A stretch of 11,998 bases of DNA from Candidatus Zixiibacteriota bacterium (GTDB lineage: Bacteria; Zixibacteria; MSB-5A5; GN15; PGXB01): NCBI GenBank assembly GCA_900498245.1, contig LS998015.1, forward strand, positions 395,560-407,557, read 5' to 3'. The position numbers and the translations under genes are program-made. This document shows positions 3,082-11,998 of this stretch, one piece after another. Numbering within the stretch: position 1 is the first letter of the stretch; each line of letters opens with the position of its first letter. Under the pieces are notes generated by a model, which did not search any database, was not told the origin of the DNA, and saw nothing but the letters and a program-made list of their open reading frames with translations.

Positions 3082-3099
3082 TTGTGAATTGATTCACAT
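3082..3099 (+). promoter_or_regulatory. Rex operator upstream of rex (autoregulation)
   Basis: TTGTGAATTGATTCACAT is the Rex consensus palindrome TTGTGAA-N4-TTCACAA with only the last base changed. It lies 42 bases before the rex ATG, just after the predicted -10 box. Rex proteins commonly repress their own gene through such a site when NADH is low. Confidence 0.88.
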
Positions 3100-3141: not shown

Positions 3142-3798
3142 ATGATTTCAGAAAGCAGCAAGAGGAAAATTTCCGAATCGACGATTCATCGGCTGTCTCT
3201 TTATTATCGGGTTCTATCGATTTTGGAGAAGGAAAATAAAGAGACCGTATCATCCAAGGAACTTGCCAAGCGGGAGAAACTTACGCCGGCGCAAGTGCGC
3301 AAGGACCTGTCCTTTTTCGGATCGTTTGGAACGAGGGGTCTGGGATACCCGGTGCTGGAATTGAAACGTCAGATTGGAGAAATACTCGGGCTTAATCGGA
3401 CCTGGAATGTGGCGCTGGTCGGGGTGGGGAATATCGGTTCGGCGCTGGTGGGCTACAAGGAATTCCAGCGGCAGGGATTTCATATCAAAATAATATTCGA
3501 CAACGATCAGCGAAAAATCGGCTCGAATCATAAAGGGATTCAGGTCGCCGATATCCGCAATCTGGAAAAGGAACTTAGGGACAATCGGATCGAGATCGTG
3601 GTGATCGCGGTTCCAGCGACCGTGGCGCAGTATATAGTTGATGACATAGTTAAAGCGGGAATAAAGGCAATTTTGAATTTCGCTCCGGTGAATCTGAAAG
3701 TCCCGGAGGACGTATTTCTGCGCAATGAGAATATGTCGATGGAACTGGAATATCTTTCATTTGCGTTGATAAATCTTCAAAACGGCAAGAGGTTGTAA
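3142..3798 (+). CDS. rex: Redox-sensing transcriptional repressor Rex
   Basis: Rex is a dimeric repressor that binds TTGTGA-type palindromes and is released when NADH rises. The 218-residue protein has the winged-helix N-terminus (about 8-80): ISESTIHRLSLYYR opens it and LTPAQVRKDLSFFG (47-60) is the recognition helix, followed by the wing TRGLGYPV (64-71). The Rossmann domain follows, with GVGNIG (94-99) as dinucleotide loop and Asp120 at the end of the second strand (IFDND), which selects NAD(H) over NADP(H). VIAVPATVAQ (154-163) and LNFAPVNLKVPEDV (178-191) are conserved Rex segments, and the last helix (200-211) would be domain-swapped. The ATG at 3142 fits the family start, but GGAG directly abuts it with no spacing, so translation may be inefficient. 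The only other upstream in-frame codons are after stops at 3124-3129. A Rex operator precedes the gene, and a cluster of further operators lies at 11360-11576. Confidence 0.96.
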   Translation: MISESSKRKISESTIHRLSLYYRVLSILEKENKETVSSKELAKREKLTPAQVRKDLSFFGSFGTRGLGYPVLELKRQIGEILGLNRTWNVALVGVGNIGSALVGYKEFQRQGFHIKIIFDNDQRKIGSNHKGIQVADIRNLEKELRDNRIEIVVIAVPATVAQYIVDDIVKAGIKAILNFAPVNLKVPEDVFLRNENMSMELEYLSFALINLQNGKRL

Positions 3799-10037: not shown

Positions 10038-11315
10038 TTGAGAGATAAACGGAAATTATTTGTTCTTTCAATATTTCTGTTATTCCATTTATATTCGCCG
10101 GCGGGGGCCTCGGATAATAAGACCGGCTTTCAGATTCTCACGGGGATCGGCTATGATTTCGTCTCGCAACGATATTTTATAGATTCGGTGGGCGTATCCG
10201 GCCCGGACTCGATTCTCAACTCGACGCTTCTCAAAAAAGACTATCTCGATGACAAAAAGGGCCTTCTCTATTTGCGGTATGACCCTCGTAAGAACGGCCG
10301 GGCCTTCTTTGAAGCGGGATGGGAGCAGACCCCGGAAATATACCGGGCCCTCGGCAATGGCCGGTTGGTGACGGAGAAAGGGGCCGACCGCATGGAACTG
10401 GATGGCCGGTTCGAAATAAAAAAGCGTTTCAAGGGGACCGAAGAAGTGGGGGAGGGACTCGGAATTGCCAATGCCCGAATCGGGTATATCAGGCGGTTGA
10501 ATGACATTCTCAGGGGCAAAATCAGAATTTACGGGGAAACGGTTCATTTCGACTCGACCGGGTATGCCATATTCGATTACCGGCGATATGGCGGCGAAAT
10601 CGGCATTGATGCCCTGACAAGGGATTTTAATAATATATATATGACCGTCGGCGGCGAGCGACGAGAAGTCCCCGATTCGACGGCTTTGGGATATTGGCTG
10701 GGACGGGGGATCGTTGGCTTCATGGGGGGACTGGGACAAGGTCAACTGATGGCCGAATTTGGATTGGAGTCAAGGAAATATCCGCAGGCAAACAGCGCCT
10801 CCGATTATCTTCTATATTCCCTATACTCCGAGGGGAAAATCTATTTGGGCAAGAAAGATTTTTTGAGACCGCGACTGGATCTGGAATATTTTAATTATCG
10901 CGGAGATCAGGCGATAAATGATGACTATCTGCTGGGCCGGGGAGCCCTGACAGCTGGTCCGGAGTTTGAAAAGGCGACTCTTGGAGTCGGACCGGCGGTG
11001 GAAATCTTGTGGATAAACTCTGAATTTCATACGGATAACTACCTTGAATATGGTCTGGAGGCCAATTTTGACTATTATTTGGGGAATAAGGCATTGGTTT
11101 TGTTGAGTAATCAGTTTGGATATCGGAATTATTCCGACAGCGGCTCGTTTTATAGCGATTTCAATTTTGTTCGCTTTAACTTGATCGGCAATGTCAAATT
11201 CTGGCGCGCCCTGACCTTCGATTTGCTGCTTTCGGCGGAGCGAGAGTGGCACAAGGTCGAGAGCGACAACACGACTTTATATCTTCTTTCAACCAACCTT
11301 ATATATACTTTCTGA
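10038..11315 (+). CDS. Predicted outer-membrane beta-barrel protein (TTG start)
   Basis: The 425-residue protein has a signal peptide: MRDKRK, a hydrophobic run 7-18, and a likely cut after PAGA at 24. After it come many alternating hydrophobic/polar strands rich in Tyr, Gly and Phe (for example DLLLSAEREWH and NFDYYLGNKALVLLS). The C-terminal STNLIYTF, with a terminal Phe, is the usual sorting signal of outer-membrane barrels, so the cell is diderm. I cannot assign a family or substrate. The start is TTG at 10038; no in-frame ATG occurs before the mature domain, and TTG is the only nearby choice that gives a proper signal peptide. No strong ribosome site precedes it. With three bases between the previous stop and this TTG, translation is probably coupled to the helical-repeat gene. 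No convincing terminator follows within about 45 bases. Confidence 0.85.
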   Translation: MRDKRKLFVLSIFLLFHLYSPAGASDNKTGFQILTGIGYDFVSQRYFIDSVGVSGPDSILNSTLLKKDYLDDKKGLLYLRYDPRKNGRAFFEAGWEQTPEIYRALGNGRLVTEKGADRMELDGRFEIKKRFKGTEEVGEGLGIANARIGYIRRLNDILRGKIRIYGETVHFDSTGYAIFDYRRYGGEIGIDALTRDFNNIYMTVGGERREVPDSTALGYWLGRGIVGFMGGLGQGQLMAEFGLESRKYPQANSASDYLLYSLYSEGKIYLGKKDFLRPRLDLEYFNYRGDQAINDDYLLGRGALTAGPEFEKATLGVGPAVEILWINSEFHTDNYLEYGLEANFDYYLGNKALVLLSNQFGYRNYSDSGSFYSDFNFVRFNLIGNVKFWRALTFDLLLSAEREWHKVESDNTTLYLLSTNLIYTF

Positions 11316-11359: not shown

Positions 11360-11377
11360 TTGTGAATTTATTCACAT
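11360..11377 (+). promoter_or_regulatory. Rex operator, site 1 of the distal array
   Basis: TTGTGAATTTATTCACAT matches TTGTGAA-N4-TTCACAA in 17 of 18 positions counting the free centre. It shares both half-sites, including the changed last base, with the operator at rex. Confidence 0.85.
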
Positions 11378-11426
11378 TTAACCGACTGTGGGGCGGGTTC
11401 CTGAGGGGAGTGACGAAAGGCAGTTA

Positions 11427-11444
11427 TTGTGACATATTTCACAA
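11427..11444 (+). promoter_or_regulatory. Rex operator, site 2 of the distal array
   Basis: TTGTGACATATTTCACAA has a perfect TTGTGA/TCACAA palindrome with a 6-base centre. It starts 67 bases after site 1. Confidence 0.88.
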
Positions 11445-11491
11445 GGAATTCTCGGCGACCTGGAATTGCCATGTCTAAAGACCTTTCTCTC

Positions 11492-11509
11492 TTGTTCCTT
11501 TTTTCACAA
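11492..11509 (+). promoter_or_regulatory. Degenerate Rex-like site (site 3 of the array)
   Basis: TTGTTCCTTTTTTCACAA has a perfect right half (TTCACAA) and a left half with only TTGT conserved. Alone it would be unconvincing. Its start is 65 bases after site 2 and 67 before site 4, exactly the slot the spacing predicts. Confidence 0.45.
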
Positions 11510-11533
11510 TTTTTTTGATTTGGGGTGGTTATT

Positions 11534-11554
11534 GGGGGTGGGGTAGGGTTGGGG
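11534..11554 (+). other. Strong G-quadruplex motif
   Basis: The run is G5-T-G4-TA-G3-TT-G4, four G-tracts with loops of 1, 2 and 2 bases, which is a canonical and very stable quadruplex pattern. Another G4 tract lies at 11522-11525. It ends four bases before Rex site 4. Confidence 0.8.
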
Positions 11555-11558
11555 TAGA

Positions 11559-11576
11559 TTGTGACATGATTCACAA
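11559..11576 (+). promoter_or_regulatory. Rex operator, site 4 of the distal array
   Basis: TTGTGACATGATTCACAA is a perfect TTGTGA/TCACAA palindrome, and with flanks it extends to GATTGTGA...TCACAATC. It is the best match in the window and starts 132 bases after site 2. Confidence 0.9.
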
Positions 11577-11826
11577 TCTGGCCGGTTGTGGTGGTGCTTT
11601 TGGAGGGTGGTTATGGAGGTGATCCGGGGGGTTGGTTTGGTTCTTTGGCGGCTGTTGAATTGGGGTCATGAGGTCGGCTGGGGTATTGATATTGGACGGC
11701 CGGATCTGGTTTTGGGGATGTTGGAAGGGATCTGAAGCCGGTATTCTGGGATTGGTTTGGAGGAGGAATTGGGCCTTTATTTGTTACTAACAGGGGTAGT
11801 ATTTTATCTTTTTTAGCATAATTTGC

Positions 11827-11854
11827 TTGACAATTGTTGGTTTGGGGTTATTTT
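11827..11854 (+). promoter_or_regulatory. Predicted promoter for a gene beyond the right edge
   Basis: TTGACA at 11827-11832, 16 bases, then TATTTT at 11849-11854 (4 of 6). The surrounding GCTTGACAATTGTTG (11825-11839) matches the rex promoter in 14 of 15 bases. Transcription would start near 11861. Confidence 0.45.
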
Positions 11855-11915
11855 GGTGATGTCCAGGGAATAGTTGTGTTGAAGAAGCACTTCTGTTAAG
11901 ATTCTGACGCACCTT

Positions 11916-11946
11916 TTGCAATATCAAGGAAGACTTGGTATTGTGA
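11916..11946 (+). other. Leader hairpin
   Basis: CAATATCAAG (11919-11928), loop GAAGA, CTTGGTATTG (11934-11943) pair over ten positions with one G-U. Further G-U and A-U pairs could extend the stem to 13. No T run follows, so it is an RNA structure of the predicted leader rather than a terminator. Confidence 0.5.
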
Positions 11947-11998
11947 GATAGAAAAAGCTCTTATTGATCGACCTTCCGAAAGTTCTTGGTGGTTCTTA

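Follow-up and report, generated by a model that had tools for sequence, protein, structure and literature searches.

Rex is the textbook NADH sensor and is thought to cover promoters via one or two sites, and the locus described here raises the question of what it might do with a row of evenly spaced palindromes of which none lies at the promoter of the gene that follows. The window, i.e. the whole stretch of 11,998 nucleotides that was analysed (G000:C1:395560-407557, G000 being the 3.5-Mb genome of a Candidatus Zixiibacteriota bacterium), carries four such sites in steps of 67, 65 and 67 bp, of the palindromic form TTGTGA-N6-TCACAA and, in three of the four, with 0-1 mismatch to it (Table 1). 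The initial annotation had listed three strong palindromes and a degenerate one with these steps, and all were found exactly where it had placed them. Sites with 0, 1 and 2 mismatches number two, two and one in the window, four of the five within 217 bp and the fifth before rex, whilst counts in first-order Markov shuffles of the window gave mean expectations of 0.00, 0.03 and 0.30 per 12-kb window (0.33 for up to two mismatches). The array is confirmed as real.

Table 1. Features of the locus, in window coordinates unless another locus is named.
Feature	Position	Strand	Sequence or remark
Single putative Rex operator	3082..3099	.	TTGTGAATTGATTCACAT; 60 bp upstream of rex
rex, redox-sensing transcriptional repressor	3142..3798	+	218 aa, without extra domain
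425-aa gene	10038..11315	+	stop codon 45 bp before array site 1
Array site 1	11360..11377	.	TTGTGAATTTATTCACAT; ~-501 relative to inferred transcription start
Array site 2	11427..11444	.	TTGTGACATATTTCACAA; ~-434 relative to inferred transcription start
Array site 3	11492..11509	.	TTGTTCCTTTTTTCACAA; ~-369; degenerate in the left half only
Array site 4	11559..11576	.	TTGTGACATGATTCACAA; ~-302 relative to inferred transcription start
Imperfect palindrome, TACTAC-N5..7-GTAGTA type	11784..11801	.	TTACTAACAGGGGTAGTA; upstream of the -35
Promoter TTGACA-N16-TATTTT	11827..11854	+	consensus type; -35 CTTGACA nearly invariant in relatives
Inferred transcription start	11861
Leader RNA start	11861..11998	+	~390 nt, runs off-window (L009:2421-2811) to the target ATG
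Target ATG	12252 (L009:2812)		off-window; 693 bp beyond the last array site
Second array copy	L050:6927-10473 (G000:C1:2044926-2048472)		probably with whole leader and gene

The rex product encoded in the window is a canonical, plain Rex, with the Pfam domains PF06971 and PF02629, matches over cut-off to the Rex equivalog NCBIfam models and an E-value of 7e-49 against Rex crystal structures. The motif that precedes it, presumably for autoregulation, also precedes rex in G001, G013, G006, G004, G009, G010 and G011, so in eight members of family f1 counting G000, and in seven of eight more distant genomes from f3 and f4, and within G000 it is found before nuoA, a ccmC-like gene, an HdrC-like gene and an aldehyde dehydrogenase gene. 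The operator of known Rex regulons is TTGTGAA-N4-TTCACAA (S. aureus, PMC2883068; S. mutans, PMC3441419), and G000 resembles these regulons in the 18-bp palindrome itself, in the site at rex and in the respiratory target nuo. The array sites are less strict than the textbook Rex operator, with C at position 7 in sites 2 to 4 and with positions 7 and 12 not always A/T; in the symmetrised motif TTGTGA is nearly invariant, and A occupies position 7 in most half-sites but in no more than 65% of them. Where array sites carry two mismatches in one half, these invariably fall in the promoter-distal (left) half whilst the right half TCACAA is kept, as read from the array loci of G000, G001, G006, G032/G023/G058, G066 and G048.

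This laxity at position 7 would also suit a regulator of the Crp/Fnr family or some other regulator. The TTGTGA-N6-TCACAA core is common to CRP sites, TGTGA-N6-TCACA being the CRP consensus too, TGT-N10-ACA fits NifA-type sites, and the window itself encodes an NtrC-type two-component pair. RExxxR is the CRP-type recognition helix and ExxSR the FNR-type, and the sole Crp/Fnr-type protein of G000 carries the helix SETLSR, i.e. the FNR-type ExxSR and not RExxxR; the main Crp/Fnr-type protein of other array-bearing family members likewise has an ExxSR helix, and G008, which carries rex and three perfect sites, lacks any Crp-type HTH protein. On regulator presence and recognition helix, CRP/FNR ownership of the sites was largely rejected, and with the motif standing at rex, nuoA and other redox genes and the target promoter being sigma70-like rather than sigma54, we consider a regulator other than Rex improbable. 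The one observation against Rex is that rex was not found in the 83%-complete assembly of G005, though two perfect sites are present there, and this may be an assembly gap; rex is present in eight of nine further array-bearing genomes. Rex is the likely binder of the array sites, since rex itself bears such a site, nuoA and ccmC each have a single one upstream, and the helix of the sole Crp/Fnr-type protein is of the FNR type. The initial reading of the palindromes as Rex operators thus holds, as a putative one, with the motif at rex and redox genes and rex encoded in the genome.

The gene downstream of the array encodes a predicted type IX-secreted protein of 861 aa, with a signal-peptide-like N-terminus and a C-terminal Por_Secre_tail domain (PF18962 and TIGR04183, over cut-off). 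The target also matches cohesin, its relatives match Ig/cadherin-like domains, and full-length relatives in named records are nearly all from Candidatus Zixiibacteriota. The initial annotation had supposed an off-window gene that might be a main redox switch target: the association with such a gene is conserved, but its product is a secreted surface-type protein and not that of a metabolic gene. Its promoter is sigma70-like, not sigma54, and strong, and is conserved across the order. The imperfect palindrome upstream of the -35 is conserved in most of 26 aligned upstream regions, and is found at loci without a Rex array too. A search for a promoter within the array gave a sole match that was weak, on the minus strand and near chance, and was rejected. 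The DNA between array and promoter (window 11510-11790) has a strong G/T skew with many plus-strand G runs (C 12%, G 42%); as a conserved feature this was discarded, being strong in G000, G010, G043 and G063 and absent from G012, G032 and G058.

The leader RNA is likewise conserved across the order, in 24 genomes, with a near-invariant 5' block (GUCUAGGGAAAUAGUUGUGU..GCUUCUGUU..GCACCUU) and a hairpin whose covariation is 0.541 vs 0.226 in shuffles, with both sides changed in nine of 11 pairs and 47 compensated cells vs 15.5 in shuffles. It had no match in Rfam.

Conservation of the array was followed across 80 genomes of the order with the 425-aa gene as anchor; orthologues of this gene occur in 57 of the 80, its protein has no Pfam or NCBIfam match, and a scan of named genomes with it found nothing. 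Arrays follow the 425-aa gene or precede the target in almost every member of the same family with enough sequence, and also occur in several genera of a second family and one genus of a third, with two to seven sites in most genomes and one in a few. A blind search for exact site pairs 55-85 bp apart gave 11 in the 80 genomes, all upstream of the target gene; when it was extended to 132 genomes of the phylum, none came from outside the order, and the reversed control pattern gave zero matches. In ten genomes of the second family (f4) the target gene is present and array sites are absent, and those tested have rex, so Rex control would be dispensable there.

Within G000 the array spacers are mutually unrelated (32-45% in pairwise alignments), by which a recent tandem duplication was rejected here, in agreement with the initial annotation of an evenly spaced array without such an origin. 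The congener G001 keeps steps of 67 and 65 bp, its sites lying 44, 111 and 176 bp beyond the stop codon of the upstream gene vs 45, 112 and 177 bp in G000, with the first three spacers 21-31% identical, i.e. at chance level, and with a third site degenerate in the same manner as that of G000. A further comparison is available within the genome, where window 11492..11680 (plus strand; sites 3 and 4) is 93% identical over 190 bp to G000:C1:2045058-2045247. This segment runs into a 3.2-kb assembly gap, a run of N (G000:C1:2045247-2048472), the far side of which carries sequence found after the stop codon of the first target gene, so that a second target gene, near-identical to the first, very probably lies within the gap. 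In this second copy sites 1 and 3 are likewise 132 bp apart, although the middle site is gone and the DNA that separates them shows 26% identity. Because the spacing is identical in the congener and in the second gene copy despite unrelated spacer DNA, we conclude from these alignments that it is under selection; its loss in relatives had been named beforehand as the refuting observation, and it is kept. Near-identical repeats seem to break contigs at the array locus in several relatives.

An older tandem duplication, in which a unit of ~66 or ~77 bp was copied and the spacers then drifted, so that the spacing only adds sites, has a parallel in G036 (L155:1305-1782), where seven Rex-type sites stand in 76-77 bp units with spacers still 62-88% alike, an array that by this likeness is a young tandem expansion. 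Drift of this kind is nevertheless quite improbable as an account of the spacing, given that G001 and the second copy retain the steps to the exact base pair despite randomised spacers, and that independent lineages share the same two step values, one turn apart.

Those two values emerge across the order, where array steps cluster at 63-68 and 74-77 bp, with some f4 arrays looser (steps of 99-112 and 145-151 bp). The best helical period for the short steps was 10.6 bp (p 0.0015) and for all steps 11.1 bp (p 0.00015), with a mean phase of ~0 at 11.0 bp, values to be read with the period having been fitted to the same data and with p-values that ignore phylogeny, related arrays not being independent. 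The in-vivo helical repeat in looped E. coli DNA is ~11 bp per turn (PMC8501960), and with steps that fit multiples of ~11.0 bp the sites probably lie on one face of the helix. The initial annotation had assumed 10.5 bp per turn, hence 6.2-6.4 turns per step and sites not on one face, and this is not borne out by the fit to multiples of 11.0-11.1 bp at a phase of ~0. One further even array in G000 (L051:6307-6402; G000:C1:978306-978401), of three sites in 39-bp steps with the middle one half-degenerate, precedes genes for an NHL-repeat protein and a multihaem cytochrome; its step does not fit 11-bp phasing.

The array is also held at a set distance from the promoter. Counted from the inferred transcription start, the position of the last site is -302 in G000, -303 in G014, -303 in G017, -312 in G013, -290 in G036 and -288 in G047, and the next site recurs across genera at -369, -371, -372, -367 and -368, with array sites across the order falling between ~-260 and ~-750. 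No site with up to two mismatches was found between ~-260 and the start in 24 upstream regions, so that the array would not directly act by the usual covering of the promoter by Rex. The first site is also regularly placed when measured from the other end: the first site lies 42-46 bp past the upstream stop codon in G000, G001, G005, G006, G008, G036, G047, G038 and G066, with the stop-to-site DNA mostly unrelated among these nine genomes, and the array fills the space from that stop codon to ~-290. This is what would be seen if Rex acted as a roadblock or insulator behind the upstream gene, stopping read-through from the rex-side genes so that the target is driven by its own promoter only, with spacing mattering for cooperative binding only. 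This is the main rival explanation. We regard it as rather unlikely, as the 425-aa gene lies elsewhere in G043, G073 and G016 whilst the array stays with the secreted-protein gene, the site positions are fixed relative to the promoter as well, and a roadblock would not need helical phasing. The number of sites, four in this array and three or more in the second copy vs about ten other strong ones in the genome, would also suit a sponge that mainly titrates Rex and sets a threshold for the remaining regulon, but a sponge predicts neither a fixed spacing nor a fixed distance to one promoter and seems very improbable.

We therefore favour, with somewhat better than even confidence, action at a distance, in which distal, helically phased putative Rex operators put the secreted-protein gene under NADH/NAD+ control. 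At low NADH, Rex dimers would fill the array sites along a single DNA face at intervals of six or seven turns, so that the array would be occupied ~300-500 bp upstream of the strong sigma70-type promoter. As no site overlaps that promoter, the resulting multi-dimer Rex assembly would exert its effect from a distance and most likely lower transcription, by looping or wrapping the DNA to reach the promoter or a factor bound at the TACTAC/GTAGTA element; NADH would then release Rex and the assembly would dissolve. What the computations show directly is the sites, their conservation together with the gene, the constraint on their spacing, the phase, the lack of sites at the promoter and the link of the motif with rex; Rex binding, repression rather than activation, and looping or wrapping as the physical step we infer. 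We know of no Rex-Rex bridging.

Known Rex targets have a single site or a pair, which as a rule lie at the promoter or close to it (PMC2883068; PMC3441419; PMC5886521), whereas here two to seven phased sites precede a secreted-protein gene, ~260-750 bp before its inferred start. Spacing in whole turns with an in-vivo repeat of ~11 bp recalls the looping operator pairs of the Lac repressor type (PMC8501960); however, the Rex dimer has one DNA-binding unit and no established Rex-Rex bridging, and the present array is a series of sites of which none lies at the promoter. Enhancer arrays of the NtrC/NifA type are similar in being distal, phased and composed of multiple palindromes serving one promoter, and TGT-N10-ACA formally overlaps the motif, but the promoter here is sigma70-like and the motif tracks rex. 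In the literature searched, which was incomplete, we found no description of a conserved phased array of Rex sites, none of a type IX-secreted protein under the control of Rex, and no paper joining Rex and Zixibacteria. It is a tentative proposal, held with less than even confidence, that Rex, otherwise known as a simple dimer that blocks promoters, forms in this order a multi-dimer, helix-phased array controlling a duplicated cell-surface protein from 300-750 bp, in two geometries of six and seven turns and together with a new conserved leader RNA.

A conserved row of sites with unconserved spacers suggests that Rex acts from a distance as an ordered assembly, and a distal array conserved turn for turn would, if true, extend the mode of action of Rex to higher-order DNA architecture. 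As the two geometries differ by one helical turn, a dependence on phase could be tested directly in a laboratory host, and the leader RNA merits a study of its own. If the proposed control is true, the redox state of uncultured Zixiibacteriota, a little-known phylum, would be tied to a secreted surface protein.
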